NCBI RefSeq assembly: GCF_000093025.1
Contig: NC_014207.1
Span: 1,426,001 to 1,490,000, forward strand
Direction of reading: 5' to 3'
Length of the DNA: 64,000 nucleotides
Origin: Methylotenera versatilis 301
Lineage (GTDB): Bacteria > Pseudomonadota > Gammaproteobacteria > Burkholderiales > Methylophilaceae
In this document: positions 5,389-33,856 of the stretch, in pieces
Position numbering within the stretch: the stretch's first letter is position 1
How the letters are laid out: every line of letters begins with the position of its first letter
Made by a program: the position numbers and the translations under genes
The notes under the pieces: model-generated
What the model was told of the DNA's origin: nothing
Database searches by the model: none
The model's input: only the letters and a program-made list of their open reading frames with translations

Positions 5389-6234
5389 TTACTTCGAACC
5401 ATTATTCGCTTTTCGTTTTACCCCAAAGCTTTCAGTAATTCTATCTAACATAATAGCTAGCAACACTACGCCTAAGCCACTTTCAAATCCCAAGCCAATA
5501 TCTAAGCGTGAAATGCTAGATAACACGTCATTACCTAAGCCTCCAGCGCCTACCATAGAGGCAATAATCACCATAGATAATGCCATCATAATGGTTTGAT
5601 TGATGCCAGCAAACAAGGCTGCCATCGCGCTTGGTATTTGTACTTTCATAAGCAATTGTGTTGGCGTGCAACCAAAAGCAATACCGGCTTCTACTTGCTC
5701 TTTATTTACCTGACGAATACCTAGTGACGTGAGTCGAACCACTGGAGGCATCGCAAAAATAACGGTGGCAATCACGCCTGGTACTCGACCTAAACCAAAG
5801 AACATTGCCGCTGGAATTAAGTAAACAAATGCTGGCATTGTTTGCATAAAGTCTAAAACGGGTCGAATAGTGGCTTCAGCTTTATCATTCCTGCCCGCCC
5901 AAATTCCAAGCGGAATACCTACCGTTAGGCTAATTAATGTGGCGGATATGATGAGCGCAAGTGTAACTAATGTTTGAGCGGTAAAGCCCATATTGTCGAT
6001 TAACCACAGTGATGCCGCGCAGAATAAACCAAACTTCCAGCCAAGTCGCCAATAGCCTATTGCTATAAATAGGATGGCGAACAGCCAAAAAGGGATGGCT
6101 TGCAAGCCATTTTCAATACCTGCGGTTGAGCTATTGATAATGGCACCCATGCCATTAAATAAGCCATGGTCATTAACTTCTAGCCAGCCTACCGCACCCG
6201 CAACCCATTCACCTAGAGGGATTTTATAGCTCAT
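5389..6234 (-). CDS. proW: glycine betaine/proline-type ABC transporter permease (ProW family)
   Basis: This 281-residue inner-membrane permease has about six membrane segments and the binding-protein-dependent transport motif around EAGIAFGCTPTQLLMKVQIPSAM, where the coupling helix contacts the ATPase. The sequences LDFMQTMPAFVYLIPAAMFFGLGRVPGVIATVIFAMPP and MALSMVIIASMVGAGGLG are hallmarks of ProW/OusW/ChoW permeases for quaternary ammonium compounds. Its start codon overlaps the proV stop by 4 bases (ATGA), so the two are translationally coupled. It is the last gene of the long betaine cluster. The matching binding lipoprotein is encoded about 20 kb away at 26282-27271. Confidence 0.9.
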   Translation of the reverse strand: MSYKIPLGEWVAGAVGWLEVNDHGLFNGMGAIINSSTAGIENGLQAIPFWLFAILFIAIGYWRLGWKFGLFCAASLWLIDNMGFTAQTLVTLALIISATLISLTVGIPLGIWAGRNDKAEATIRPVLDFMQTMPAFVYLIPAAMFFGLGRVPGVIATVIFAMPPVVRLTSLGIRQVNKEQVEAGIAFGCTPTQLLMKVQIPSAMAALFAGINQTIMMALSMVIIASMVGAGGLGNDVLSSISRLDIGLGFESGLGVVLLAIMLDRITESFGVKRKANNGSK

Positions 6235-7469
6235 GCTTTTTTCTCCTTATATAGTTTGCGCAGTAAGACTGTTTTAGTGATTGCACCCAGATACTCGCCG
6301 CTGTAACCAATGACTGGGAGCGGGCAGGCGCAGCCAACCACTTTATTCAGGACTTCATTCACAGGCGTTTTCCCAGGAATAGCAAAGTCTCCTGGCAATA
6401 ACGCGTCACGCAGTTTTTTACCTTTTTGATTCATACAGTTGGTCAACGACTCTGCAGAAACTACCCCTACTACTTTTTGCAGTTCATCTAGTACAAAGGC
6501 GTAATCACGGTTAAATAAACGCATGCGAGCAAGTGCTGCACTGAACCCCGCTACCAAATCATCAGGGCGATCAAAAATGGTGACTTCTTCTTTTTGTGCC
6601 ACATCTTTGGCTGTGAGGTATTTGTTAACATCCACACCGGTAAAGAATGCTTTTACATAGTCATCTGCTGGACGTTGAAGGATGTCTTCTGAAGTGCCGA
6701 CTTGCACGACGCGGCCACCTTCCATAATACAAATACGGTTGCCGATGCGAAGCGCTTCATCAAGATCATGAGAAACAAAAACAATGGTACGTTTTTGTTC
6801 TTGTTGAAGCTTCATCAGCACATCTTGCATTTCAGTGCGGCGTAAAGGGTCTAATGCAGAAAACGCTTCATCCATTAACATGAGTGAAGGGTTTACGGTA
6901 AGTGCGCGTGCAAGTCCAACACGTTGCTGCATGCCGCCAGAGAGTTGAGAGGGTAAATGTTTGGCAAAAGTATGAAGACCAACTTGCTCTAGCACTTCCA
7001 TAGCGCGACGCTCACGCTCAGCCAGATTGATACCAGCGATTTCCAGTCCAAATGCTGCATTTTCGACTACAGTGCGGTGCGGTAGTAAGGCGAAAGACTG
7101 AAAAACCATGCTCATGTCTTTGCGACGTAAATTAAGCAGTTTGTCTTTGCTCATTGCTGCGACGTCTTCGCCATCAACAATAATATTGCCGGCAGTCGGC
7201 TCGATGAGTCGATTAAGTAGTCGAATTAAGGTGGATTTTCCTGAACCAGAAAGCCCCATAATGACAAAGATTTCACCTTTGTTAATTTCGAAAGAGGCGT
7301 CCTGTACACCAACTACTTGTCCAGTTCTTTTGAGGATTTCATCTTTATGCAATCCTTCTTTCAACATCTGTAACGCAACTTCAGGTTTATTACCAAACAC
7401 TTTATGCAGATTTCTGACGACCACTTTTGCTTCAGTTGTCGGTGTATTTGCAGATTGTATGACCCCCAT
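6231..7469 (-). CDS. proV: glycine betaine ABC transporter ATP-binding protein (ProV family)
   Basis: A 412-residue ATPase with Walker A GLSGSGKST at 72-80, Q-loop in VFQSFALLPHRT, signature LSGGMQQR at 176-183, Walker B LMLMDE at 196-201 and H-loop in VFVSHDLDEA. The C-terminal ~125 residues form a CBS-like pair (FDRPDDLVAGFSAALARMRLFNRDYAFVL... and PVNEVLNKVVGCACPLPVIGYSGEYLGAITK), the regulatory part that senses ionic strength in OpuA/ProV relatives. A good AAAGGGGA ribosome site precedes the ATG. It follows gbcB by 99 bases on the same strand, so uptake and demethylation genes appear linked. The substrate could be betaine, choline or both. Confidence 0.92.
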   Translation of the reverse strand: MGVIQSANTPTTEAKVVVRNLHKVFGNKPEVALQMLKEGLHKDEILKRTGQVVGVQDASFEINKGEIFVIMGLSGSGKSTLIRLLNRLIEPTAGNIIVDGEDVAAMSKDKLLNLRRKDMSMVFQSFALLPHRTVVENAAFGLEIAGINLAERERRAMEVLEQVGLHTFAKHLPSQLSGGMQQRVGLARALTVNPSLMLMDEAFSALDPLRRTEMQDVLMKLQQEQKRTIVFVSHDLDEALRIGNRICIMEGGRVVQVGTSEDILQRPADDYVKAFFTGVDVNKYLTAKDVAQKEEVTIFDRPDDLVAGFSAALARMRLFNRDYAFVLDELQKVVGVVSAESLTNCMNQKGKKLRDALLPGDFAIPGKTPVNEVLNKVVGCACPLPVIGYSGEYLGAITKTVLLRKLYKEKKA

Positions 7470-7568: not shown

Positions 7569-8708
7569 CTACTTTTCTATCACTAAATTACTTAAAGGTT
7601 TAGAGCAGCAGGGTAGAAACATGCCCTGATCTATCTCACGCTGACGAATCCCGCCACCATGTTTCATATCCACCTGACCTGAAACTAACTTACTTTTACA
7701 AGTACCGCACAAGCCTTTACTGCATGATGATGGCAGCCTTAGGCCTGCTGCACGTGCAGCATCTAGAACAAACTGGTCTGGTGCGCACTGAATGGTCGTG
7801 CCGCTTTTGCTTAATTCAACTGAAAAAGTTTGTGCATTATTGTGGTGTGATTCAGTCTCTTTATGATGAGCGTTTTCTTCAGCTTGAACAGCTGCTTGCG
7901 TTTCAACTGGCAGTTCGTCAAAAGTAAAGCTTTCTTCATGGTAATGCGCCATGTTGAAGCCTGCAGTAGCGAGTAAATTCCGCACTGAAGCCATATACGG
8001 CGCTGGGCCACAGGTAAACACTTCACGTTCTAGAAAGTCTGGAGCACTAAGTTTTAGGTTCTCTGTAGTCAGCATTCCCTCAGTGATAAACTCAGGCTGT
8101 AAACGCCAATTGGGCGATTTATCGACTTTTGCGCAAATATATGCTGGTTGGAAATGCGTTTGATTGAACGCCATTAAATCAAGCTCATGCTTAAAAATGA
8201 TGTCTATTGGTGATCTTGCGCTATGCAAAAATACAACATCAGCATCTTCGGCTAGCTCATGAAAAGAGCGTGCCATCGACATAAGCGGCGTAATACCAGA
8301 GCCGCCTGATAAAAATAGATACTTCTGCGCAGGGTGAAGCACGCAAGTGAAATCGCCCGTTGGCCCTAACGCCGATATTGGCGTGCCAACTTTCATATTG
8401 TCATGTAACCAATTTGATACGATGCCATTAGGCTTACGTTTAACGGTAATCGAAATCACGTGTGGGCGATTTGGGGAAGATGAAATCGTATAACTACGAT
8501 TGATGATTTCGCCATCAATGGTAAGTTCTAGGGTGATAAATTGCCCAGGTAGAAATTTGAATACGCTGGCTTCTTGCGGCGTAAAGAAGAAACTTTTAAC
8601 GTCATGCGTTTCTTGCCTAATCTGGCAGCAAACTAGAACATTGTTCTTGTCGCTATCCCATTGTGGCAAGTTAGCGTCCCAAAGCTGAGGCGTATTCCTT
8701 GAGTTCAT
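7569..8708 (-). CDS. gbcB: glycine betaine monooxygenase, ferredoxin reductase subunit
   Basis: This 379-residue flavoprotein passes electrons from NAD(P)H to the Rieske oxygenase GbcA. It has an FAD-binding barrel (RSYTISSSPNRP), an NAD-binding domain (LSGGSGITPLMSMARSF, then TCGPAPYMASV) and a C-terminal 2Fe-2S ferredoxin domain with CSKGLCGTC and a fourth Cys in LPCCSKPL. The ATG at 8708 overlaps the gbcA stop (TAATG); a GTG three codons upstream is the other possible start. A histidine-rich linker (HHKETESHH, about residues 281-289) separates the reductase from the ferredoxin domain. Together GbcAB convert glycine betaine to dimethylglycine with release of formaldehyde. Confidence 0.92.
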   Translation of the reverse strand: MNSRNTPQLWDANLPQWDSDKNNVLVCCQIRQETHDVKSFFFTPQEASVFKFLPGQFITLELTIDGEIINRSYTISSSPNRPHVISITVKRKPNGIVSNWLHDNMKVGTPISALGPTGDFTCVLHPAQKYLFLSGGSGITPLMSMARSFHELAEDADVVFLHSARSPIDIIFKHELDLMAFNQTHFQPAYICAKVDKSPNWRLQPEFITEGMLTTENLKLSAPDFLEREVFTCGPAPYMASVRNLLATAGFNMAHYHEESFTFDELPVETQAAVQAEENAHHKETESHHNNAQTFSVELSKSGTTIQCAPDQFVLDAARAAGLRLPSSCSKGLCGTCKSKLVSGQVDMKHGGGIRQREIDQGMFLPCCSKPLSNLVIEK

Positions 8709-10015
8709 TAGCGACACACCATAATCGGCACGGTTTTAGAGTTAGCCGCGGCTTGTTTCTTAATGAATTCAGGTTTTTCCAGCGTTGCTTCTAAGCGTTG
8801 TATATACCAATTGGTAAACTTCTCTACTAATTCTTCTGTATAAGGTGAGTAAGGTCCTGGCTCATACCATTCACTATTTGCACCACGTTGAGTGCGCTCA
8901 ACCAAAGTTGAATCTTGTTTGTTAGTTGCCTGCCAAACTTCAGTGATTTTTTTCGTTTCGTAATCTACGCCTTCAACAGCATCTTTATGTACTAACCATT
9001 TGGTGCGCAATAAGGTGTGTTCAGCATCAATCGGCAATACGCTAAAAGTCACAATGTGGTCACTCATAAAGTGGTGCCATGAGTTAGGTTGTGTCCAAAA
9101 CGACAATCCACCTAAGTTACGCTGGGTTAAATCGCCCAGTAGTTTTTGACATGCGACATTACCATCCATTGTTTGTGATTCACCTGCTTTATCAAGTGGC
9201 AGGCGCTGAGTGCGATAAGCGGTTGCGCAAGAGTCCAGCAGATCAATTTCAGCAGAGGGTAACCCGCAGGATTCCCAACGTTTACCTTCTGTCTCAATCA
9301 GGTCGCGAAACTCTTGTACTTTTTCTGCGTTAGCTGGCGAAGGCTGATAACCAAAGCCATACTCATAAAGTGAAATAGTGAGTTCAGGGTGATTTGCCAC
9401 ACAGTGATAACATTCGCGGTTATTTTCCATGGTCAACTTCCAGTTGCCATTTTCTACAATATCTTCTTGCCAAATCACTTTGCAATCTGCAACTCGATGA
9501 GGTGCGATATACGGCTCCATTGCAGCGCGCATTTCTTCAAAATCGGCAGGCGGTTCGTCAGCTAAGCAGATGAAAATCAAACCAGCTACGTTACCCACAT
9601 GCACAGATTTTAGGTTGTGGTCATTCGGGTTAAAGGCTTCGCCCATGTGTTCGGTATAAATAAGTTTGCCAGTTAGATCATAAGTCCATTGGTGATACGG
9701 GCACACTATATTGCCTACGCTACCTTTGGCATCGTCACATAATTGTGAGCCACGATGGCGGCATACATTGTGAAACGCTTTAATGTTCATGTCATCGTCG
9801 CGCACGATAATCACTGAATTACTGCCCACATCAACCGTAATGTAATCACCTGGCTCTGCAATATCTGGTTCTACTGCTACATAGATCCAATGCTGGGAAA
9901 AAATCGCAGCGACATCTAAATTAAAAATATCAGAGTTCAAATAAAACGGCGCATTGAGTGAATGTCCTTTGAGACGATTTGTAATCATTTTTTGGATGTC
10001 TGATGAAATAGTCAT
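8708..10015 (-). CDS. gbcA: glycine betaine monooxygenase, Rieske oxygenase subunit
   Basis: A 435-residue ring-hydroxylating-type oxygenase. The Rieske 2Fe-2S site is Cys85-x-His87 ... Cys105-x2-His108. The mononuclear iron site is visible around NRECYHCVANHPELT, with His204 and His209, and an acidic ligand is expected in the later WHHFMSDHIVTF segment. Family members GbcA, StcA and the carnitine enzymes share this layout; the dgc and sox neighbours make the betaine-specific version by far the most likely. It removes one N-methyl group as formaldehyde, using O2 and electrons from GbcB. An AGGAAA ribosome site precedes the ATG. Confidence 0.93.
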   Translation of the reverse strand: MTISSDIQKMITNRLKGHSLNAPFYLNSDIFNLDVAAIFSQHWIYVAVEPDIAEPGDYITVDVGSNSVIIVRDDDMNIKAFHNVCRHRGSQLCDDAKGSVGNIVCPYHQWTYDLTGKLIYTEHMGEAFNPNDHNLKSVHVGNVAGLIFICLADEPPADFEEMRAAMEPYIAPHRVADCKVIWQEDIVENGNWKLTMENNRECYHCVANHPELTISLYEYGFGYQPSPANAEKVQEFRDLIETEGKRWESCGLPSAEIDLLDSCATAYRTQRLPLDKAGESQTMDGNVACQKLLGDLTQRNLGGLSFWTQPNSWHHFMSDHIVTFSVLPIDAEHTLLRTKWLVHKDAVEGVDYETKKITEVWQATNKQDSTLVERTQRGANSEWYEPGPYSPYTEELVEKFTNWYIQRLEATLEKPEFIKKQAAANSKTVPIMVCR

Positions 10016-10048: not shown

Positions 10049-10834
10049 TTAAAAGTTGATAAGACGATGTTCACGCAAATAGCCCAGAATAACTTGTGCT
10101 TTTTCGACAGAATTTCCATTATTTACGACAGCGCCACCTTTGCTTTCACTCGAAATGGCTGACATCATGCGGTCATGTCCTGATTTATTTTCAGGTGCTT
10201 TTAGTTTGATTGGTTTGCGTATCGACGCTAGTGTTTGCCACTGCGTCTTATGGACACTTGTTGAAGTTGAGGTGTAAGGCACTGGCAATGTTTTTATTGC
10301 ACCTGAAATCTGACGCGCATATGAAAACTTCAAACTAGCGGGTGCTAGCGGGTGAATTGCAATAATTGCTGGCAACTTCACTGTGACATGACGGCGTTTT
10401 CCCTTAGGCAAGAATTGAAGCACCTCAATAGTGTTAGCCTTCACTTTAATGGCTAATGCATTTACTACTAACGGTATGCCAATTTTTTCAGCTAATAAAT
10501 AAGGTAATAAGCTACTATCCTCACCACTTTCCGCACGACTGCCTGTTAAAATTAGGTCGGCGTGGTTTAATTGAGTCGCTAAGCAATCTACGACATCAGT
10601 ATCGTCTGAGATGGGAATCACATCGATTTGACCAGCACCAAGCGCTAAGTACTCGCTTAAGGCTTTGTTGTCTGGGTTGCCTGCATGCAGTACATGGTGT
10701 TTTGCTGAGATTGATTTTGCCATGTCTAATCCGATAGTCATAGCAAGGCTATCGTTATGGCAGTGGCGTGGCTCTCCGCTCACAGGATGTCGGCCAGCTG
10801 AAACCAATGTTGTAATGTGCTTAATAATATTCAT
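10049..10834 (-). CDS. etfB: electron transfer flavoprotein beta subunit, dimethylglycine demethylase-linked
   Basis: A 261-residue EtfB-like protein, diverged from the housekeeping form. The fold signals are NDSLAMTIGLDMAK at the N-terminus, the central HADLILTGSRAESGEDSSLLPYLLAEKIGIPLV (AMP/FAD-facing loop) and VKLPAIIAIHPLAPASLKFSYARQ. The C-terminal 40 residues, with GGAVVNNGNSVEKAQVILGYLREHRLI, form the recognition arm seen in cluster-linked versions. It should pair with the EtfA encoded next to it and carry electrons between DgcA and DgcB. It lies 18 bases after etfA and 33 before gbcA. No clear ribosome site is visible. Confidence 0.85.
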   Translation of the reverse strand: MNIIKHITTLVSAGRHPVSGEPRHCHNDSLAMTIGLDMAKSISAKHHVLHAGNPDNKALSEYLALGAGQIDVIPISDDTDVVDCLATQLNHADLILTGSRAESGEDSSLLPYLLAEKIGIPLVVNALAIKVKANTIEVLQFLPKGKRRHVTVKLPAIIAIHPLAPASLKFSYARQISGAIKTLPVPYTSTSTSVHKTQWQTLASIRKPIKLKAPENKSGHDRMMSAISSESKGGAVVNNGNSVEKAQVILGYLREHRLINF

Positions 10835-23401: not shown

Positions 23402-24655
23402 TTAATGCGCAACACCGGCTGCGCCGTGCTCGTCAATCAAATGACCTGTATGAAAGCGGTCAAGCGTGAATGCGGCGTTCAGCGGGTGTGGTTCATCATG
23501 TGCAATGGTGTGGGCAAATACGTTGCCAGACCCTGGCGTTGCCTTAAAGCCACCTGTACCCCAGCCGCAATTAAAGTACAAACCTTTGACTTTAGTCTTA
23601 CTGATAATTGGGCAGGCATCGGGCGTAGTGTCAACAATGCCGCCCCATTGGCGATTCATACGGACGCGAGAAAACATTGGGAATAGCTCGATAATCGCTG
23701 CTGCAGTATGCTCAATCACATGTGGGCTACCGCGCTGAGCATAGCTGGTGTAATGGTCAATCCCTGCGCCAATCACAAGCTCACCTTTATCTGATTGACT
23801 GACATAGCCATGCACCGCGTTAGACATCACTACTGTGTCTAGTATAGGTTTGAGTGATTCTGAAACAAAGGCTTGTAATGGATGACTCTCAAGCGGCATG
23901 CGGATACCAGCAGCTTTTGCCATCACGGATGAATGACCCGCTGTCACACAGCCAACTTTTGTTGTTGAAATATAACCTTTACTAGTTTGCAGGCCTTTAA
24001 TCTGTGAGTTGACGATATCCATCGCTGTTACTTCGCAGTTCTCGATAATATCAACCCCATAATTACTCGCTGCGCGGGCAAAACCCCAAGCGACCGCATC
24101 ATGTCTAGCCACGCCAGCGCGAGGTTGGAAGCTTGCGCCCATAATTGGGAAGCGCGTGTCCTTAGAAATATTAATCATCGGAATGCGGTCTTTCACTTCT
24201 TGCGCATTCAACGCCAAGGCGTCGATTCCATTTAGATTGTTGGCGTTCACGCGGCGCTCAATATCACGCATGTCTTGCAGCGTATGACCAAGATTGAATA
24301 CACCGCGCTGACTAAACATCACGTTGTAGTTAATGTCTTCGGTCAATCCTTCCCACAGTTTTAATGAGTGCTCATAAAGCATGGCTGCTTCATCCCAAAG
24401 GTAATTAGAGCGGACGATGGTGGTGTTACGCGCAGTGTTGCCGCCACCTAAATAGCCTTTTTCTAACACTGCAATATTTTTAATACCATGCTCTTTAGCA
24501 AGGTAGTAAGCAGTGGCTAAACCATGACCACCTGCACCAATAATCACTACGTCATACGAAGATTTAACTTCAGGACTGCGCCAAGCAGGCGTCCATCCTT
24601 CGTGATGTTTTAACCCTTGTGAGAGTAGTTTCCAAATGGAATAATCTTTTTTCAA
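23402..24655 (-). CDS. soxB: sarcosine oxidase beta subunit
   Basis: This 417-residue flavoprotein oxidises sarcosine. The FAD site is GAGGHG at 40-45, and the residue for covalent FMN attachment is His185 in [32 protein letters not shown] near the C-terminus is typical. The only sensible start is a TTG with a GGAGG ribosome site four bases upstream, which is a short spacing. It is the first gene of the long minus-strand run to proW and has the shared 21-bp-spaced operator-like element 77 bases upstream. Confidence 0.94.
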
Positions 24656-24697: not shown

Positions 24698-24761
24698 ATT
24701 CTGCTGTTTCAGCGCTTTGTTTAATGTGCTACATCAGACTGTTTCTTGGCTTTTTACGACA
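24698..24761 (-). promoter_or_regulatory. candidate activator site and promoter of the sox-to-proW operon
   Basis: Read toward soxB: half-site TGTCGTAAAA (24752-24761), then AGTCTGATGT (24731-24740) starting exactly 21 bases later, then 27 bases to a -10-like CAGAAT (24698-24703). No good -35 is visible. The same arrangement occurs before proX, the torF-like porin gene and betB. Inferred to be an AraC-type operator; the second half-site is the most degenerate of the set. Confidence 0.55.
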
Positions 24762-24894
24762 TGTGACGTTTTAGTTATATTTGCCTAATCATTAACGCGT
24801 AATAATTTAGTGATAAAGGGCTTTATGATAAGGTTAAGCTCACCGACCAAAGTGTTGAAATGGTTAGTGACTCTTGATTTGAAAATACTTGAAT

Positions 24895-26103
24895 TTAGAA
24901 ATAGTAGCCGACGCTCACATTTAAGCGTTGCCCATTATTGTCAGTTGCTTTTCCTGCACCCATACCGTTATAAAATACAGGAGACATATATGTCGAGTTT
25001 TTGCCTAACATATAGTCAGCATAAATCCACACCTTGCCAGCACCAAAAGAGAGTCCTGTTACGTTCTGTGAAGAATCGGTGAAACTACTTTCGTGTTTTA
25101 TCAGTGAACTATACTCGTTGTAAACAGTAAAGCCACTAAATGGTCCAATGGTGCCGCCTATGTTGTAGCTCACATTGGCTACGTAAATCTCACCTTCAGT
25201 AGCCAATTTGTTTGAAAAGCCAAATCCACCGACTGCTAATGTGGTAGGTGAGCCGTTTAGATCATAGTCATATTGCATGGCCATTAAGCGCACAGCTGCT
25301 TTGCCAAACACCCCTGCGTAGTGAGCGGCAACAGCGTCTCTGTGTCCAGATTGATTGATGGTGCTAGCGACTTCGCCATGTAGGTAAGATAATCCAAATT
25401 CTGACTTGGCGTCATTGCTGTGTTCCATAGAATATGTCACTCGGGCAATACCAGTATTTTTTTCCTGATGCTCATTGACGAGGTGAAAGCTGTAACGGGC
25501 TGAATCATCCTCTAAGAAGTTGCTTTTTGTATCTGATGTACTACCATGACCACCATCAGATGGATAAAAAGCCAATTGTGTGTCAAAAGCGCCATCTTTT
25601 CGTGAGTATTTAATGCCTAAACTTTGCGTGTCTTCAAAACCCGCATAGTACGCCATAGATTCAAAAAAGTTATTTCCCGCATAAGGATAAAGTCCAAACG
25701 GATGTGAGTTTAAACCCGCAATTAACTCGCTTTTGTCACTAAATCTGTAACCAGCCCATAAATGGTTTAAGAGCACCATATTGCCAGAATCGCCACCTGT
25801 TTGTCGCTTAGAATAGTGGTAATAACGCAATTGACCAGAGCCAATAATAGAGCCATCATCGTAACCAATTTCGCCGCGCAAAGTATCAAACTCTAGCTCA
25901 CCTTTGCGATCTTTGTTGTAATTGACGTATTGGTATGCACCACGAATTGCACCGCCAAATTTCCAGGGAGATTTAACCGCAACATTTGCATTTTCGACAT
26001 TTTCGCCATCTTCTGCAAAAGCACTTGTATAGGCCAAACTAAAGCCTAAAAAGCATATACCTGCACGTATCACTGAAGTGGTAAATGGTTTATTTTTTTG
26101 CAT
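24895..26103 (-). CDS. outer-membrane porin-like beta-barrel protein
   Basis: A 402-residue protein with a signal peptide (MQKNKPFTTSVIRAGICFLGFSLAYTSAFA) followed by alternating amphipathic strands rich in Tyr, Gly and Asn, and a C-terminal phenylalanine in NVSVGYYF, the usual BAM recognition end. Segments such as GSGQLRYYHYSK and ELIAGLNSHPFGLYPYAGNNFFESMAYYAG recall short-chain/urea porins and OprD-like general porins. The ATG at 26103 is preferred over one 20 codons upstream because it begins the signal peptide. It lies between proX and the sox operon, so uptake of betaine or a related compound across the outer membrane is a reasonable guess. Confidence 0.75.
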   Translation of the reverse strand: MQKNKPFTTSVIRAGICFLGFSLAYTSAFAEDGENVENANVAVKSPWKFGGAIRGAYQYVNYNKDRKGELEFDTLRGEIGYDDGSIIGSGQLRYYHYSKRQTGGDSGNMVLLNHLWAGYRFSDKSELIAGLNSHPFGLYPYAGNNFFESMAYYAGFEDTQSLGIKYSRKDGAFDTQLAFYPSDGGHGSTSDTKSNFLEDDSARYSFHLVNEHQEKNTGIARVTYSMEHSNDAKSEFGLSYLHGEVASTINQSGHRDAVAAHYAGVFGKAAVRLMAMQYDYDLNGSPTTLAVGGFGFSNKLATEGEIYVANVSYNIGGTIGPFSGFTVYNEYSSLIKHESSFTDSSQNVTGLSFGAGKVWIYADYMLGKNSTYMSPVFYNGMGAGKATDNNGQRLNVSVGYYF

Positions 26104-26214
26104 AAAAGCACACCTAACTGTTGGTAGTATGTTGTTAGTTAAGCGATTTTTGGGAATTAACAATCTGTCGCGAGAAGATAATACGTTTGAGCTTGTATTC
26201 GCGCTTTGAATAAG

Positions 26215-26259
26215 TTTGCTAAAGCAGATTATTGTCGTGTGAAAATCTGCTTTAGCAAA
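26215..26259. repeat. 16-bp perfect inverted repeat between proX and the porin gene
   Basis: Left arm TTTGCTAAAGCAGATT (26215-26230), 13-base loop, right arm AATCTGCTTTAGCAAA (26244-26259). On the minus strand it lies just after the proX stop. There is no U-run after either arm, so it is not a textbook intrinsic terminator. It may stop, slow or protect the 3' end of the proX transcript and so set the level of the porin mRNA. Confidence 0.7.
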
Positions 26260-26281
26260 TAGTTATAAAAAAGTATTTAAA

Positions 26282-27271
26282 TTAAACACCTAAATATTTT
26301 TTTACGGCTTCTAAGCCCGGTTTCCCGTCTAGTGTTTTTACGCCATCTAGCCACTTATCTAACACAGCAGGATTCTTAGTTAACCATGCTTTTGCAGCAA
26401 CGTTCGGTACTGTTTTATCCATAATTGGCAGCATTACTTGGTTTTCCATATCTAGATTAAACTCTAAATTGGTGACGAGTTTATTCACATTTGGGCAACG
26501 CGTACCTAAATCAGACGCCGTGACGGTATACACTTTCGCTTCGCCGTAGTTAGCGCCAAAGAAATCGTCACCACCACTCAGGTAAGTGATGTCTTGTTGA
26601 ACATTCATTGGGTGAGGTGCCCAACCTAAGAACACAATCCATTTTTTGTTTTTTACTGAGCGGCTGACCTCAGTCAACATGCCAGCTTCGCTAGATTCAA
26701 CCATTTTAAAATCTTTAAGACCAAATGCATTTTTGGTGATCATATCTGCAATGATTTTATTACCGTCATTGCCTGGCTCGATGCCATACATTTTTCCATC
26801 TAGGTTGTCTTTAAATTTTGCAATATCGTTAAAGCTTTTTAAACCAGCTTCATAGGCGTAAGTCGGTACGGCTAAAGTATATTTAGCGCCAACTAGGTTA
26901 GGTTTTTCAAGTACTTTAATGTCTTTAAGAAACGGCTCAACAATAGGTGTCATAGAAGGAGACCAATAACCAAGGAAAACGTCAATCTGACTCTTTTTGA
27001 TGCCTGCAAATGCAATAGGCACAGAAGCAATGGTAGAAACAGGTTTGTAACCTAAACCTTCTAAAACAACAGAGGAGAGTGCGGTGGTTGCGGTAATGTC
27101 AGTCCAGCCAATATCAGCAAATTTTACAGCGCTACAACTGGCGGCTTCGCCAGTACTCGGCGCTTCTGCCGTGGCTGCAGGAGCGGAAACTTCACTTTCC
27201 TTTTTGCCACAGGCAGTAAAGGCGAGAGGGAATAGTGCGGCGATTAAAACTGATTTTGCAAAGTGATTCAT
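26282..27271 (-). CDS. proX: glycine betaine-type ABC transporter substrate-binding lipoprotein
   Basis: A 329-residue OpuAC/ProX-like binding protein. The ATG at 27271 has an AGGAG site and begins a lipoprotein signal with Cys21 (PLAFTAC); Phe at -3 is unusual for a lipobox. An ORF extends further upstream without a ribosome site. Family features include VKFADIGWTDITATTALSSVVLEGLGYKP, IDVFLGYWSPSMTPIVEPFL and KKWIVFLGWAPHPMNVQQDITYLSGGDDFFG, where Trp residues form the aromatic box that holds a trimethylammonium group. It is separated from proV and proW by about 20 kb but carries the same type of operator as the sox operon. Confidence 0.85.
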   Translation of the reverse strand: MNHFAKSVLIAALFPLAFTACGKKESEVSAPAATAEAPSTGEAASCSAVKFADIGWTDITATTALSSVVLEGLGYKPVSTIASVPIAFAGIKKSQIDVFLGYWSPSMTPIVEPFLKDIKVLEKPNLVGAKYTLAVPTYAYEAGLKSFNDIAKFKDNLDGKMYGIEPGNDGNKIIADMITKNAFGLKDFKMVESSEAGMLTEVSRSVKNKKWIVFLGWAPHPMNVQQDITYLSGGDDFFGANYGEAKVYTVTASDLGTRCPNVNKLVTNLEFNLDMENQVMLPIMDKTVPNVAAKAWLTKNPAVLDKWLDGVKTLDGKPGLEAVKKYLGV

Positions 27272-27381
27272 TTTAACTCCTACGTAATATTGATAGTACC
27301 CAAAGAAGACAGCATGGTGAAACCACACTAGTTATCGCACTAAAACTCTCACTAATAAGAAAGTTCTGTTACAAGTAGTAA

Positions 27382-27462
27382 AATATAGCGAGTAGTCAAC
27401 AGTTAAATAAAGAATTACGACAGAATCTTGTTTAATCACGACATGTGAATCACGATGCGTGA
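27382..27462 (-). promoter_or_regulatory. candidate activator sites and promoter of proX
   Basis: Read toward proX: half-site TGTCGTGATT (27434-27443), then TGTCGTAATT (27413-27422) starting 21 bases later, then 25 bases to TATATT (27382-27387). The distal half-site is part of a second structure: two adjacent palindromic 13-mers on the plus strand, TCACGACATGTGA (27436-27448) and TCACGATGCGTGA (27450-27462), 14 bases apart. This is the best-conserved member of the four-site set. Confidence 0.6.
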
Positions 27463-27471
27463 AAAGTCATT

Positions 27472-28494
27472 TTATGTATGGCTTAAATGCATATTGGTGT
27501 TGCTGGTAAGTGAGTGTATGGCAGGTGTATGTTGGTTCTTGCGTCTTTCTTTGCTTGGCGAGTAGCCAAACAGCGTGCGGTATGATTTGCTGAAATGGCA
27601 TGAAGACTGAAACCCACAGGCGACAGTAATGCTCATAATGGACATCTCAGTTTGTAAAAGCAACGATCTAGCACGCCTTAACCTAAGATTTAAATAATAA
27701 TGCATCGGGCTCATATTAAGCGTGTGGTTAAACATACGCTGTAAATGGCGCTGAGATAATCCTGCCAATCGTGCCAGCTCATCCAGCGGTAATGGTTCTT
27801 CAATATTGGCTTCCATTAATGCAGACACTTCAACCAAGGCTTTATGACTATATCCAACACGGGCAGCAACCGGAATATGCTGCTGATCTTTACTGTCTCG
27901 TGCACGCACCACCATGAATTGGTCTGAAATTTCGGCGACTAGATTTTTGCCAAATCGTGCAAAAACAAAGGCAAGCATTAAATCTATTGGGGCTGTTCCA
28001 CCGGCGCATGTACAGCGGTCACGGTCAATCACGAAAAGCTCTTCCATAAAGGTGATGTATGGAAACTTCTCACGCAGGCTCGCCATGTTCTCCCAATGAA
28101 TCGTGCATTTATAGCCATCTAGCACACCAGCTTTTGCCAGCGCGTAACTACCAGTACATAAGCTGCCTAACCATACATTTTGCTTGCCAGCTTGGGTGAT
28201 TAACTTGATAACGCTTGAATTGACGGCGGTTTGTACATCCACACCACCACAAACCAGCAACATGTCTGGCATGGCAATTTTATCTAGCATGGTGGTTTTG
28301 GCAAAAGATAAACCATTACTTGCCTCAACAGGTAAACCGTCTGGTGTGATGACTGACCACTGATACACTTCTTGGCCAAGCAGGTAATTCGCCATGCGAA
28401 GAATTTCAATCGCATTCGAAAATGCAATCATAGAGAAATTATTGAGGGTCAAGAACCCAACATGCCTGACCTGTGACATTTCTTTACAAGACAT
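27472..28494 (-). CDS. gbdR: GbdR-like AraC-family transcriptional activator
   Basis: This 340-residue regulator has an N-terminal DJ-1/PfpI (glutamine amidotransferase-like) sensor domain, starting VRHVGFLTLNNFSMIAFSNAIEILRMANYL and including LGSLCTGSYALAKAGVLDGYKCTIHWEN, and a C-terminal AraC domain with two helix-turn-helix units (LARLAGLSQRHLQRMF, then ITVACGFQSSCHFSKSYRTLFGYSPS). This is the layout of GbdR, which responds to betaine and dimethylglycine in Pseudomonas and activates the gbc, dgc and sox genes. The start is uncertain: the ATG at 28494 follows GGGG, and a GTG at 28518 lacks a ribosome site. Position inside the island supports the same role. Confidence 0.85.
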   Translation of the reverse strand: MSCKEMSQVRHVGFLTLNNFSMIAFSNAIEILRMANYLLGQEVYQWSVITPDGLPVEASNGLSFAKTTMLDKIAMPDMLLVCGGVDVQTAVNSSVIKLITQAGKQNVWLGSLCTGSYALAKAGVLDGYKCTIHWENMASLREKFPYITFMEELFVIDRDRCTCAGGTAPIDLMLAFVFARFGKNLVAEISDQFMVVRARDSKDQQHIPVAARVGYSHKALVEVSALMEANIEEPLPLDELARLAGLSQRHLQRMFNHTLNMSPMHYYLNLRLRRARSLLLQTEMSIMSITVACGFQSSCHFSKSYRTLFGYSPSKERRKNQHTPAIHSLTSNTNMHLSHT

Positions 28495-28518
28495 ACGACC
28501 CCAATCACGATGACTCAC

Positions 28519-28876
28519 AATGAATGTTTAACAATTTGTATACTTTATTTCAATCCCACATTTTTCTTAAGCTTTAGACAATAATAGTCCTGAAAATAAT
28601 ATTTTGAAATAATAATTATAGATATTATTTTCTACGGAAAAGCATCATGACAAAATCTCAACATCAGCTAAGATTCGATTGCATTTAAAGACTTAACATA
28701 ATTGAATTGATTATATTTCCAATCCTGATATAAAAAAACCAGCTCGGCGTTTTTGCTATGGTTAATGTCGTAATTACTAATTTTTTTCTGAAGTATTCTT
28801 TGATAATGAAATTGCATAATTGAATATAATAAATAGTCAGTTTGGTTTTATCTTTTGAATATTTTGGGAGAGTCAA
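28519..28876. other. intergenic region between gbdR-like gene and torF-like porin gene
   Basis: 358 very AT-rich bases between divergently transcribed genes. It holds the candidate operator and promoter at 28745-28807, a second perfect TATAAT at 28825-28830, and an AT-only hairpin (GAAAATAATA 28592-28601 with TATTATTTTC 28623-28632). No credible gene is seen; a 74-codon minus-strand frame across it has no ribosome site or protein-like composition. Confidence 0.6.
28745..28807 (+). promoter_or_regulatory. candidate activator site and promoter of the torF-like porin gene
   Basis: Half-site CGGCGTTTTT (28745-28754), then TGTCGTAATT (28766-28775) starting 21 bases later, then 26 bases to GATAAT (28802-28807). 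The second half-site is identical over ten bases to the promoter-proximal half-site of proX. The first is weaker, with one mismatch in the GTCG core. Confidence 0.5.
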
Positions 28877-29836
28877 ATGAAAGCGCTGAGTTGGATTACA
28901 AATCGTCACGTGGTGAGCGCACTTTGCGCAGCACCAATTTTATTAAGCTGCGTATATGCGTCTGCAGAAGATGTGGTCACGGCTGCTCCAGCCGAAGCGG
29001 CACCACCATATACACTTACATATAACCTTGGGGTATATTCTAATTACATCAGCCGTGGTAATGACTGGGGTGATGGTCCTGCCTTGCAAGGAGGTGTTGA
29101 TTGGGCGCACAGCAGTGGTTTCTACTTAGGTGCTTGGTTTTCGACTACTGACCCATTGACTCTAGGGGGTGCCGGAACTGTTACCAACGTCGATCCAAGT
29201 GGAAATCCATTAGGTTCTGGTAACCATGTGGAAACTGACTGGTACGGAGGTTACACACATGCATTTGGTCCCGTTACACTGGGTATTGGTGGTAACTATG
29301 TGTGGTATCCAGAAGGTGAGAAGTCTTACCATAATAGAAATCAAGACACTTTCGAAGGTAATTTAAATATAGCTGCTTATGGGTTCACCTATACGTTTTA
29401 CCATGCATTTACCGATTGGTATGGTATTGGAAACACAAGAACAGCTGCAGCTGCAGGTCGATTCCCAAATCCCGCAGAAGCTGCAGCCGATACAAGTGGT
29501 GTTGAATATCATGAGGTAAAATATAATCATGAGTTGCCATTTGCGGGTTTAAATTTTGCCGCCAAAGTAGGTTATCAACGTTCTAGTGATATTTGTTTAA
29601 ATCAAAAAGATTTCTTAATTGGGATAAGTAGAAATTTCTCTTTGCCAACGGGTGGAAAACCGCTTGACGGATTCACTGCAGGAGCTAACTATACTGACAC
29701 GTTTGATGTGGAAGAGTGCGCAGGAGTATCTAGTGTTACCGATGGAAGTGATCATAAAACATCTTATTACACAGATGATAATGGCAAAGTCATCAATGAC
29801 AGTAAGATTACGTTCTATATTAAACGTAGCTGGTAA
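28877..29836 (+). CDS. TorF-family putative outer-membrane porin
   Basis: A 319-residue protein with a signal peptide (to about ASAEDVV) and a barrel starting with YTLTYNLGVYSNYISRGNDWGDGPALQGGVDWAHSSGFYLGAWFST, the signature of the TIGR02001/TorF family of predicted porins. Strands alternate and the protein ends in an aromatic residue (YIKRSW). A GGGAGAG ribosome site lies 4 bases before the ATG. It faces away from the gbdR-like gene, precedes betB, and has the operator-like element of the island, so it is probably induced with choline/betaine genes. The substrate is unknown. Confidence 0.8.
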   Translation: MKALSWITNRHVVSALCAAPILLSCVYASAEDVVTAAPAEAAPPYTLTYNLGVYSNYISRGNDWGDGPALQGGVDWAHSSGFYLGAWFSTTDPLTLGGAGTVTNVDPSGNPLGSGNHVETDWYGGYTHAFGPVTLGIGGNYVWYPEGEKSYHNRNQDTFEGNLNIAAYGFTYTFYHAFTDWYGIGNTRTAAAAGRFPNPAEAAADTSGVEYHEVKYNHELPFAGLNFAAKVGYQRSSDICLNQKDFLIGISRNFSLPTGGKPLDGFTAGANYTDTFDVEECAGVSSVTDGSDHKTSYYTDDNGKVINDSKITFYIKRSW

Positions 29837-29873
29837 TAACTGGTTATATAGAAGATAAATAAATATTGAAATT

Positions 29874-29899
29874 AAAAAGGACGCTACCGCGTCCTTTTT
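29874..29899 (+). terminator. intrinsic terminator after the torF-like porin gene
   Basis: An 11-bp perfect stem, AAAAAGGACGC (29874-29884) with GCGTCCTTTTT (29889-29899), loop TACC. The A/U-rich base supplies the U-run. It separates the porin gene from betBA. Confidence 0.9.
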
Positions 29900-29913
29900 A
29901 ATTTATTTAGCAT

Positions 29914-29977
29914 AGTCGGATTTGACTAACTTTAAGTCGTAATTTAAGTGGCGCTGAGTTCTTTAGGCTTTTACTAT
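29914..29977 (+). promoter_or_regulatory. candidate activator site and promoter of betBA
   Basis: Half-site AGTCGGATTT (29914-29923), then AGTCGTAATT (29935-29944) starting 21 bases later, then 27 bases to TACTAT (29972-29977). It lies between the porin terminator and the betB ribosome site. Same architecture as the sox, proX and torF-like promoters. Confidence 0.6.
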
Positions 29978-30014: not shown

Positions 30015-31487
30015 TTGTCACGTTTCGAATTACAACAACTCTATATAGGTGGTAAGCGTATAAACGCAACGAGTGGCAAAACATTCCAGACGATTAATCC
30101 TGCCAACGGTGAGGTTTTGGCTGATGTACAAGTCGCCTCTGAAGCCGATGTCGATTTAGCCGTTGCCAGTGCTAATCAAGGCCAGCGTGTTTGGGCTGCG
30201 ATGACTGCTATGCAGCGTTCGCGTATTTTGCGACGAGCAGTAGAAATTTTACGTGCGCGTAATGATGAGCTGGCCGAATTGGAAACTTTAGACACTGGCA
30301 AACCAGTTTCTGAAACGCGCTATGTCGATATCGTCACTGGTGCAGATGTGCTTGAATATTACGCTGGATTAGTTCCGGCACTTGAAGGCCAGCAAATCCC
30401 ATTACGTGAAAGCGCTTTTGCTTATACCCGTAGAGAGCCGCTAGGCGTGGTTGCTGGCATTGGGGCATGGAATTACCCCATTCAAATCGCTTTGTGGAAG
30501 TCAGCCCCAGCTCTAGCCGCTGGCAATGCAATGATTTTCAAACCCAGCGAAGTCACACCGCTGAGTACATTGAAACTAGCTGAAATTTATACTGAAGCAG
30601 GTTTGCCAGATGGTGTTTTTAATGTGCTTAATGGTAGCGGTGGCGAAGTGGGTGCTTGGTTAACCGCACATGCCGGTATCGAGAAGATATCATTCACTGG
30701 TGGTACTGTAACAGGTAAAAAAGTGATGGCGAGTGCTTCAAGCTCAACATTAAAAGATGTGACGATGGAGCTTGGTGGAAAGTCACCTTTGATTATTTTC
30801 TCAGATGCCAATATGGATAAAGCCGCCGACGTAGCAATGATGGCGAACTTCTATAGTTCTGGCCAAGTGTGTACCAATGGCACTCGCGTGTTTGTACATC
30901 GCTCTAATATAAAAGAGTTCGAGCAAAAAATTGTTGAACGCGTAGCACGCATCCGCCTTGGTGACCCGCAAGATGACAATACTAATTTTGGTCCATTGGT
31001 TAGCCAGTCTCACATGCAGAATGTGCTGCGTTATATTGACTTAGGTATCAAAGAGGGTGCGCGCTTAATAGCTGGCGGAAAGCGTGAGCTTACTGGCGAT
31101 TATGCCAATGGCGCTTATTTACAACCAACCGTGTTTATCGATTGCACGGATGATATGACGATTGTACGTGAAGAAATCTTTGGTCCAGTGATGAGCATCC
31201 TCATTTATGACAATGAAGACGAAGTGATCCGCCGCGCTAATGATACTGACTACGGCCTTGCAGCAGGCTTGATTACAGAAAATATCAGTCGTGCCCACCG
31301 CGTAATTCATCAGCTTCAAGCAGGTATTTGCTGGATTAATACATGGGGAGAGTCGCCTGCTGAAATGCCAGTTGGCGGCTATAAACAGTCGGGAGTAGGG
31401 CGCGAAAATGGCTTAATGACGCTACAAAACTATACGCGAGTCAAATCTATTCAAGTTGAGTTGGGTAACTATACGTCTGTGTTTTAG
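30015..31487 (+). CDS. betB: betaine aldehyde dehydrogenase
   Basis: This 490-residue NAD(P)-dependent aldehyde dehydrogenase oxidises betaine aldehyde to glycine betaine in the cytoplasm. The catalytic Glu is in [10 protein letters not shown] (about 252) and the nucleophile Cys in [14 protein letters not shown] (about 286), a sequence typical of BetB. The N-terminus [29 protein letters not shown] and the end [21 protein letters not shown] also fit. The start is TTG with a GGAGA ribosome site 8 bases upstream. It precedes betA by 49 bases. Neither betI nor a BetT transporter gene lies nearby, unlike Escherichia coli. Confidence 0.94.
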
Positions 31488-31536
31488 TGGTTGAGTACAA
31501 GTTGATTGATTGAAAGTACTGTCTTTAAGGAAAGTC

Positions 31537-33222
31537 ATGAGTAAAAATTCAGAATTCGATTACATCATTATCGGGGCAGGCTCTGCGGGTAACGTTTTGG
31601 CCACGCGCCTGACTGAAGATGCAGATGTAACGGTACTCTTGCTAGAAGCAGGTGGGCCTGACTATCGTTTAGATTTTCGCACGCAAATGCCAGCAGCCTT
31701 AGCTTACCCATTACAAGGCCGTCGTTATAACTGGGCTTATGAAACTGAACCAGAGCCGCATATGGATAATCGGCGAATTTCATGTGGTCGCGGTAAAGGC
31801 TTAGGCGGTTCATCCTTGATTAATGGCATGTGCTATATCCGCGGAAACGCTTTAGATTATGATGGGTGGGCGAAGCGTAAGGGCTTGGAAAATTGGTCTT
31901 ATTTCAATTGCCTACCGTATTTTAAGAAGGCTGAAACAAGAGATATTGGCCCAAATGATTATCATGGTGGTAACGGCCCCGTCAGTGTCACCACACCAAA
32001 ACCCGGTAACAATGTGCTTTATGCGGCTATGGTGGAAGCTGGTGTGCAAGCGGGATATCCTCGCACAGAAGACCTAAACGGCTATCAGCAAGAAGGCTTT
32101 GGCCCTATGGATCGCACAACCACACCACAAGGTAGGCGCTCTAGCACTGCACGCGGCTATTTAGACCAAACACTCGACCGTAAAAACCTTACCATTATTA
32201 CGCATGCGCTGACTGATCGTATTTTGTTTACTGGCAAGCGTGCAACTGGGGTAGCTTACTTGCGTGATGGCAAGCCACAACAAGCCAATGCAAAACGCGA
32301 AGTGTTGTTATGTGCTGGCGCCATCGCCTCGCCACCCATATTGCAGCGCTCAGGTGTTGGTCCAGCAGCTTTGTTGCGTGATTTAGATATTCCTTTGGTG
32401 CATGATTTGCCCGGAGTTGGTGCAAATTTGCAAGACCACATGGAAATTTACCAACAATACGAATGCAAACAGCCAGTGTCATTAGCGCCAGCCTTAAAAC
32501 TTTACAATAAGCCCTTAATTGGTGCCGAATGGCTATTTTTTGGCACTGGTATCGGCGCAAGCAATCAGTTTGAAGCAGGTGGTTTTATTCGCAGTGACGA
32601 CAGTTTTACTTGGCCGAATATTCAATATCACTTTCTGCCAGTGGCGATTAATTACGATGGCAGCAATCCGATTAAGGTGCATAGTTTTCAGGCACACATG
32701 GGTTCCATGCGCTCTCCTAGCCGTGGGCACGTACATATACGCTCGAAAGATCCTCTGGAGTACCCAAGTATCTTGTTTAATTACATGTCTACCGAACAAG
32801 ATAAGCGAGAGTTTCGTGCAGGTGTACGCATCACGCGCAACATCATGAAACAAGCCGCATTAGCGCCTTATGTAGGGCGAGAAATCTCACCAGGCGAAGC
32901 CGTGCAGACCGATGCCGAAATTGATGCATTCGTCCGTCAACACGGTGAAACGGCGTATCACCCATCCTGCTCATGCGCGATGGGCTATGATGAAATGGCT
33001 GTAGTGGATTCAGAAGGTCGTGTGCATGGTCTACAAGGCTTGCGTGTGGTTGATGCATCTATCATGCCTGAAATTGTCACTGGCAACCTGAACGCACCTA
33101 CCATTATGATAGCTGAAAAGATATCAGACCATATTCGTGGTCGCAAACCACTTGCAGCTAAAGCAGTACCAGTGTTTATTCATCCACTCCATCGCAATGC
33201 TGATGCAGCTTCAAACACCTAA
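31537..33222 (+). CDS. betA: choline dehydrogenase
   Basis: A 561-residue GMC-family flavoprotein that oxidises choline to betaine aldehyde, feeding electrons to the respiratory chain. The FAD fold [18 protein letters not shown] is at about residues 8-25, the GMC signatures [20 protein letters not shown] and [15 protein letters not shown] follow, and the catalytic His lies in [12 protein letters not shown] near residue 475. The ATG at 31537 has an AAGGAAAG site; the frame extends nine codons further upstream without one. Length equals that of known BetA proteins. Confidence 0.94.
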
Positions 33223-33232
33223 CGAATACTAA

Positions 33233-33856
33233 GTGATTTTTTCTCAAATCCATGCGCTAGCCTTGGTCGAACTGTTTGGTGTACTAGCCTTTGCATTTAC
33301 AGGCATTATAGAAGCACGCAAAAAAGGTATGGATCTTATCGGCGTTTATACCGTAAGCATGATTACCGCCTTTGGTGGCGGCACCGTGCGTGATCTTATG
33401 ATTGGGCATTACCCATTGTATTGGGTGCAACACTCGGGCTACGCTTTAATGCTACTAGGTTTTGCAATAGCCGCTGCGCCACTATCTGCCGTGTTTTACG
33501 AAAATTCAATTATTACCAAAGTTTTTGTCACATTAGATGCACTTGGTCTTGGCTTATTTAGTACAGTAGGCGCCAGTATGGCTCACCAAGTAGGCTGTGA
33601 TTTTTATATCTCGATTTTACTTGGCGTAGTCACGGGCGTATTTGGTGGGATTATTCGCGATATTATTTGCAACGAAATCCCCAATGTTTTCCGTCGCAAC
33701 GAGCTTTATGCGACATGCGCCGCGCTTGGTAGTGCGGTATTCTTAATTTGCCTATATTTTGGTATAGATGAACTTCCTAGTACGCTAGTCGCTATTGCTT
33801 TTACAACCGCCTTAAGAATAATCTCAATAAAATATCGCGTTAAATTACCTTTTTAA
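33233..33856 (+). CDS. UPF0126/TRIC-type membrane protein, candidate glycine transporter
   Basis: A 207-residue integral membrane protein with about seven helices in two related halves. Each half has the family motif: TAFGGGTVRDLMIG in the first and GVFGGIIRDIICNEIPNVF in the second. Members form trimeric channels; a Vibrio relative controlled by a glycine riboswitch has been described as a glycine transporter. The GTG start lies 10 bases after betA and lacks a clear ribosome site, so it may be read through from betBA. Glycine is a product of the pathway, so export or import of glycine is an attractive but unproven role. Confidence 0.8.
   Translation: MIFSQIHALALVELFGVLAFAFTGIIEARKKGMDLIGVYTVSMITAFGGGTVRDLMIGHYPLYWVQHSGYALMLLGFAIAAAPLSAVFYENSIITKVFVTLDALGLGLFSTVGASMAHQVGCDFYISILLGVVTGVFGGIIRDIICNEIPNVFRRNELYATCAALGSAVFLICLYFGIDELPSTLVAIAFTTALRIISIKYRVKLPF

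Follow-up and report, generated by a model that had tools for sequence, protein, structure and literature searches.

The window analysed here is a stretch of 64,000 nucleotides of Methylotenera versatilis 301 (NC_014207.1, positions 1,426,001 to 1,490,000), whose genome comprises 3.06 Mb in a single contig. It carries a compact island of choline and betaine genes together with a gene for a GbdR-like regulator. On the minus strand the island has the order proW/proV, gbcB, gbcA, etfB, etfA, dgcB, dgcA, glyA, sda, soxG, soxA, and soxB, and beyond soxB it continues with a porin-like open reading frame (ORF), proX, and gbdR; the torF-like porin gene, betB, and betA then follow on the plus strand. 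The names dgcB and dgcA for the dimethylglycine genes, as well as gbcB, proV, and proW, are presumptive labels given by recognition. Five of these genes are preceded by a candidate operator of two direct half-sites that start 21 bp apart and point toward the gene. A sequence-only reading had described such pairs before soxB, proX, the torF-like gene, and betB; all eight half-sites have the coordinates and strands it gave, the period and orientation are exact at all four promoters, and the -10-like hexamers follow the proximal half-sites after 27, 25, 26, and 27 bases, respectively, as it had counted. A fifth pair, upstream of gbcA and inside the 3' end of etfB, had been overlooked. The features are as follows.

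24731..24761, minus strand: candidate soxB operator, TGTCGTAAAA-N11-AGTCTGATGT; 10 of 10 readable genomes
24698..24703, minus strand: soxB -10-like hexamer CAGAAT, 27 bases past the proximal half-site; 4 of 6 positions match TATAAT
27413..27443, minus strand: candidate proX operator, TGTCGTGATT-N11-TGTCGTAATT; 10 of 10 readable genomes; top matrix match in the genome
27382..27387, minus strand: proX -10-like hexamer TATATT, 25 bases past the proximal half-site
28745..28775, plus strand: candidate operator of the torF-like porin gene, CGGCGTTTTT-N11-TGTCGTAATT; 8 of 10 readable genomes
28802..28807, plus strand: torF-like -10-like hexamer GATAAT, 26 bases past the proximal half-site
29914..29944, plus strand: candidate betB operator, AGTCGGATTT-N11-AGTCGTAATT; 9 of 9 readable genomes
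29972..29977, plus strand: betB -10-like hexamer TACTAT, 27 bases past the proximal half-site; 4 of 6 positions match TATAAT
10100..10130, minus strand: candidate gbcA operator, TGTCGTAAAT-N11-TGTCGAAAAA, in the 3' end of etfB, 84 bases before gbcA; 10 of 10 family genomes with gbcA
10067..10072, minus strand: weak gbcA -10-like hexamer GAACAT, 27 bases past the proximal half-site; 3 of 6 positions match TATAAT

None of the five promoters has a good -35 element (1 to 3 of 6 positions match at the right distance), and the proximal half-site ends 1 to 5 bases ahead of the -35 place. For the four promoters first described, the summed best pair score reaches 45 of 48 at 21 bp, compared with 37 for the runner-up among 54 spacings (7 to 60). 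Dinucleotide shuffles average 31.7 (standard deviation, 1.4), and the score of 45 was reached in 0 of 1000 at 21 bp and in 0 of 300 at any spacing; the four-site pattern is not a product of chance. The strict consensus GTCGKR was rejected as a genome-wide test by itself, since only two of its five exact pairs at the right spacing lie in the island. Its 50 exact pairs with gaps of 3 to 33 include these five at gap 15, two of which are proX and betB; two others sit inside long open frames, one of them presumably EF-Tu-like, and the last consists of the same 27 letters as the pair in that frame. A reversed-pattern control, which differs in composition, was also set aside. The sequence-only reading had proposed a matrix scan, to which many equally good hits in unrelated promoters would have been the objection. 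A 33-column matrix was built from 19 sites of 8 relatives, leaving out the genome itself and two near-identical relatives, and 150 of 1567 first-look candidates in the genome were scored with it. The four sites rank 1 to 4 (E values of 4e-4, 1.3e-3, 0.06, and 0.73); among the candidates scored, they are followed by only three partial matches (E values of 1.5, 1.7, and 5.6), and no equally good full-length match occurs elsewhere.

Among 187 genomes of the family, gbdR (called at E<=1e-60) is found in 11, our genome included, and is confined to 3 of 24 genera. The island is therefore patchy in the family, and the distribution of its regulator suggests that methylotrophs acquired the use of betaine or lost it repeatedly. 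As in the window, gbdR adjoins island genes in all 10 relatives, two of which (G142 and G143) encode GbdR-like proteins 99% and 98% identical to ours. The candidate operators are present before soxB in 10 of 10 readable genomes, before proX in 10 of 10, before betB in 9 of 9, before gbcA in 10 of 10, and before torF in 8 of 10; the betB region of G119 is unreadable (a run of N), and the betB and proX sites of G162 were read directly from the sequence. The spacing is 21 in all 46 tabulated sites of the five promoters, and a 47th site (betB of G131) starts at its second base at a contig end. In a non-redundant set of 32 sites, with G142, G143, and G036 dropped, G2, C4, and G5 of the distal half-site and G2, T3, and C4 of the proximal half-site (that is, G23, T24, and C25) are invariant, and the spacer mostly drifts. 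Within the 31-bp site, A is enriched in columns 15 and 16 (0.62 and 0.99 bits). AraC-type proteins contact a 17-bp half-site with two helix-turn-helix (HTH) motifs; in such an arrangement, a further conserved box would be expected roughly one turn beyond the TGTCG core. The -10 match, taken as the best of offsets 25 to 27, averages 4.06 of 6, against 3.41 in the best non-overlapping window. Phylogenetic footprinting, another proposed check, thus finds the half-sites, the 21-bp spacing, and the -10 distance kept in relatives.

Matrix matches at E<=0.01 occur in all 11 genomes with gbdR, 8 of which supplied training sites, versus 2 of 176 without it. The four matches outside the training set (E values of 0.005 to 0.08) all lie before betB, in G158, G131, G036, and G037. 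At E<=0.3, and with stricter filters applied, matches occur in 33 of the 176 genomes without gbdR, fewer than the approximately 53 expected by chance. Five places in genomes without gbdR were viewed (L102, L103, L104, L105, and L106), and the flanking genes were determined for L105. There, a 21-bp pair (L105:3739, minus strand) precedes a torF homologue of G047, a genome in which gbdR is not matched at 1e-60; an aldehyde dehydrogenase-like frame split in two ORFs adjoins it. Upstream of gbdR, dgcA, glyA, and sda, no convincing pair was found in the family genomes where these regions are readable.

The gbcA pair lies wholly within the etfB reading frame, and it is kept although EtfB is only 57 to 65% identical to that of the window in 8 of 9 relatives. 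Codon usage was compared in nine genomes, with G142 dropped, over 91 residue-invariant codons. Ten of the 91 residues use a single codon; these comprise 5 of 5 inside the two 10-mers and 5 of 86 elsewhere (Fisher p 5e-6). Two of the five outside the 10-mers directly follow the proximal 10-mer, and a wider grouping of the site plus these two codons, chosen post hoc, gives 7 of 7 versus 3 of 84 (p 1.5e-8). In addition, the T before each GTC is constant though the encoded residue varies, between Ala and Thr at one half-site and among Ser, Asn, and Cys at the other. The putative gbcA operator in etfB is under codon-level constraint. In the open-licence literature no paper was found that joins gbcA with etfB, and among the titles listed for GbdR together with Burkholderia, none dealt with Burkholderia GbdR sites. 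The etfB-embedded operator is the part that goes beyond what we found in print; the other four add a new organism to an operator type already described.

Outside the family, the survey covered the best 80 of 589 loci that encode a GbdR relative. Four of the 80 are Methylotenera or Methylophilales; the other 76, all named, belong chiefly to Burkholderia, Paraburkholderia, Caballeronia, Cupriavidus, Collimonas, Aromatoleum, and Thauera, mostly Burkholderiales, and because these loci are interrelated, counts over them are not independent. Of 31 spacings tried, 21 comes out best upstream of proV, gbcA, glyA, sda, and, by a narrow margin, gbdR. A pair scoring 11 or 12 of 12 at this spacing is found in 39 of 46 proV and 31 of 38 gbcA upstream regions, and for gbcA the other listed spacings reach at most 4 of 38. 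A composition-corrected matrix built from the 32 family sites yields 142 matches above 14 bits at spacing 21, versus 3 to 45 at each other spacing from 16 to 26, and 104 of its 129 matches at or above 16 bits lie upstream of island-gene homologues; the gbcA sites of the family went into this matrix, so that its 31 gbcA matches are not independent of them. With default filters, the 33-column matrix gave only 3 matches at E<=1 in the 76 loci and no match at E<=5 in 29 loci around GbdR-family matches of a class sample. Two Collimonas loci (L112:7421 and L114:7417, both minus strand) carry an extra strong pair on the opposite strand that does not precede a known island gene. In the genomes of gammaproteobacterial GbdR relatives, gbcA was found at E<=1e-80 in 0 of 14 class genomes; 12 gammaproteobacterial loci show many chance pairs in GC-rich DNA, and one of these loci, L193, has a pair just upstream of sda.

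etfB lies directly upstream of gbcA in 35 of the 76 loci, and the pair is present in 29; the other six are three Collimonas, Hyphomicrobium facile, and two unclassified Proteobacteria metagenome-assembled genomes. The codons GTA, AAA, GCA, and CAA in or right after the half-sites are used in 91 to 100% of the 35 loci, where only 23% of codons at conserved EtfB residues end in A or T; TAT and CAT slightly downstream of the half-sites are likewise fixed (94% and 100%). Three loci, those of Aromatoleum toluolicum (L111), Thauera (L116), and Aromatoleum toluvorans (L118), lack this etfB in front of gbcA. In L116 and L118, EtfB is encoded by a different copy, 34% identical and 5 to 7 kb away, and L111 has no EtfB at E<=1e-30. 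Nevertheless, L111 and L116 carry a pair with the 21-bp period about 100 bases before gbcA, and in both the stretch after it, in a frame picked for the match, reads like an EtfB end (VGKAQVAPQCLREHRLIVF-stop in L116). EtfB residues 241 to 261 match there with E values of 3e-4 (L111) and 1.5e-4 (L116), and the rest of EtfB gives nothing better than E 2 over the preceding 900 bases. The open frame of the remnant has 57 codons in L111 and 56 in L116, with no start codon ahead of the site. L118 was dropped as a clear remnant; it has the pair, but with a degenerate proximal half-site, its EtfB-like stretch lacks significance (E value of 0.03), and its frame is open for 971 codons. Peptide shuffles for all three loci never reached the 11 to 16 of 26 identities observed (0 of 200000 each). 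After the half-sites alone, 7 to 9 of 14 identities to Methylotenera were reached by at most 1 of 200000 shuffles, and 6 to 7 of 14 identities to Trinickia (L149) by 9 to 51 of 200000. The simplest reading would be loss of this etfB with retention of the promoter located in its end.

The genes of the island are given below.

27472..28518, minus strand: gbdR-like gene, GATase1-like domain plus AraC-type HTH; predicted binder of the five operators
23402..24655, minus strand: soxB, beta subunit of sarcosine oxidase; the first gene to follow the candidate sox operator
26282..27328, minus strand: proX-like choline/betaine ATP-binding cassette (ABC) binding protein; TIGR03414 above cut-off
28877..29836, plus strand: TorF-family putative porin; TIGR02001 and PF09694 above cut-off
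30015-31487, plus strand: betB, betaine aldehyde dehydrogenase; with betA, 30015..33222
31510-33222, plus strand: betA, choline dehydrogenase
8708-10015, minus strand: gbcA, glycine betaine monooxygenase; with gbcB, 7569..10015
7569-8717, minus strand: gbcB, glycine betaine monooxygenase
5389-7469, minus strand: proV/proW-like transporter genes, after gbcB
10049..10834, minus strand: etfB, electron transfer flavoprotein beta subunit; candidate gbcA operator in the last codons

The regulator has a GATase1-like domain (PF01965) and an AraC-type HTH (PF12833/PF00165), all above gathering scores, which together define the GATR subfamily. Its best NCBIfam family is GbdR (NF052371) with 398.9 bits, and the next family reaches 181.6 bits; because it stays below the equivalog cut-off, the regulator is named GbdR-like. 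gbcA likewise scores under its equivalog cut-off (469.7 of 670 bits). Between proX and soxB, the ORF of 422 amino acids at 24895-26163 (minus strand), which we take by recognition to be porin-like, has no Pfam or NCBIfam match and is absent from that place in the two near-identical relatives. After betA, at 33233-33856 (plus strand), a protein with two glycine-transporter domain matches (PF03458) is encoded; its gene keeps this place in G142, G143, G168, G162, and G036, the relatives whose contigs extend there.

We propose, with a probability of roughly 0.9, that the five elements are GbdR/CdhR-type activator operators read by the GbdR-like protein. Each repeats a GTCG-type half-site directly at a 21-bp period, faces its gene, and stands before choline or betaine genes. 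Since 21 bp corresponds to two helical turns, two GbdR-like subunits bound in tandem to the TGTCG cores would lie on the same face of the DNA. With no good -35 element and a proximal half-site ending 1 to 5 bases before its place, the bound activator could take over the -35 contact and thereby help RNA polymerase. The same geometry is seen for AraC at araI1-I2, where a pair of direct half-sites is separated by two helical turns and the proximal half-site lies beside the -35; the core sequence and the regulator subfamily differ. The ligand would be betaine or dimethylglycine, as for GbdR in Pseudomonas (PMC3170909). Five transcripts may be switched on together, namely, betB-betA, proX, the torF-like porin gene, the sox operon, and gbcA-gbcB (possibly extending to proVW), with the gbcA promoter embedded in the end of etfB.

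The closest known counterpart is the CdhR site upstream of caiX in Pseudomonas aeruginosa (PMC5806209), GGTCGC-N15-GGTCGC, in which GTCG direct repeats with N15 between 6-mers have the same 21-bp period; the operators described here would therefore be of a known kind in a new organism. CdhR is also a GATase1-AraC regulator of quaternary-amine catabolism and is described there as a class I activator; in our promoters, the proximal half-site ends just before the -35 position. CdhR differs in its half-sites and in controlling carnitine genes, whereas here TGTCG(T/C/G) half-sites precede choline and betaine genes. According to the same source, changing the CG of the distal half-site abolishes GbdR binding in Pseudomonas; the distal C4-G5 is invariant in our set. 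The GbdR regulon of P. aeruginosa, as it appears in that source, has the same kind of regulator and targets; unlike it, the present system is one compact island and includes a TorF-family porin gene and a gbcA operator inside etfB. Conserved intragenic sigma-54 sites of Escherichia coli (PMC4591121) are likewise regulatory sites conserved in coding sequence; unlike them, the site in etfB would serve the genes that follow it as activator operator and promoter, and it apparently outlives its host gene in some lineages.

The sequence-only reading had pointed to an AraC-family, GbdR-like activator, which the regulator's domains, its best family, and the period of the CdhR site bear out. It had also envisaged a compact regulon of choline oxidation, uptake, and betaine breakdown; this view is supported, with at least five promoters rather than four and with the torF site missing in 2 of 10 genomes. 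Several observations weigh against our interpretation. The regulator reaches 398.9 of the 480 bits of the NF052371 equivalog cut-off; the soxB proximal half-site is weak, as are the soxB and gbcA -10 hexamers; and the torF operator is absent in G036 and G037. The gbcA site is not found genome-wide by the matrix at E<=10, and within the window it scores 4.9 bits and takes place 20 among 24 matches. In the 76 loci, spacing 21 does not lead upstream of soxB, proX, betB, and eight further genes, and the proV score is also reached by spacing 18 (24 of 46) and spacing 15 (11 of 46).

Chance or base composition as the origin of the pattern has a negligible probability: the pattern was picked after the sequence had been viewed, and its strict consensus has many matches in the genome, but the shuffles, the spacing control, the out-of-sample matrix, and the relatives all contradict this explanation. 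The operators might instead be real but serve a different GATR-type regulator (SouR-, CdhR-, or ArgR-like) whose gene lies elsewhere, the adjacent gene being only a relative. The missed equivalog cut-off and the G047 pair before a torF homologue would fit such a regulator, as would the statement in PMC5806209 that CdhR, GbdR, SouR, and ArgR sites are very similar. We consider it very unlikely, since at E<=1e-60 the genome has a single gene matching the GbdR-like protein, good sites occur together with gbdR (11 of 11 versus 2 of 176), and gbdR stands beside island genes in every relative that has it.

For the gbcA pair, mere protein-coding conservation of the EtfB C terminus, with no operator, also has to be considered, since the pair lies in frame, scores poorly, precedes a weak -10-like hexamer, and is missing in three Collimonas and three other loci. 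However, coding conservation explains neither the single-codon residues concentrated in the 10-mers nor the T kept before GTC whether the residue is Ser, Asn, or Cys, nor the A-ending codons held in the 35 loci; moreover, L111 and L116 carry the pair where no EtfB is encoded. We regard it as unlikely. It is instead probable that a GbdR-type operator and promoter of gbcA lies in the etfB end from Methylophilaceae to Burkholderia-type bacteria, that it has dictated codons there, and that it outlived etfB in some Rhodocyclaceae, in which a short remnant of the EtfB C terminus would still serve as the gbcA promoter. Its wide spread may reflect either descent or transport along with the gene cluster.

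With these operators, the betaine gene chain of a methylotroph becomes one testable regulon with five predicted start sites. The TorF-family porin, of unknown function in Pfam, is thereby linked to choline and betaine uptake; in open-licence searches for TorF with porin or choline, none of the matches listed named TorF. The embedded gbcA operator is a clear example of a regulatory site that appears to impose codon choice on a protein and to outlast that protein.

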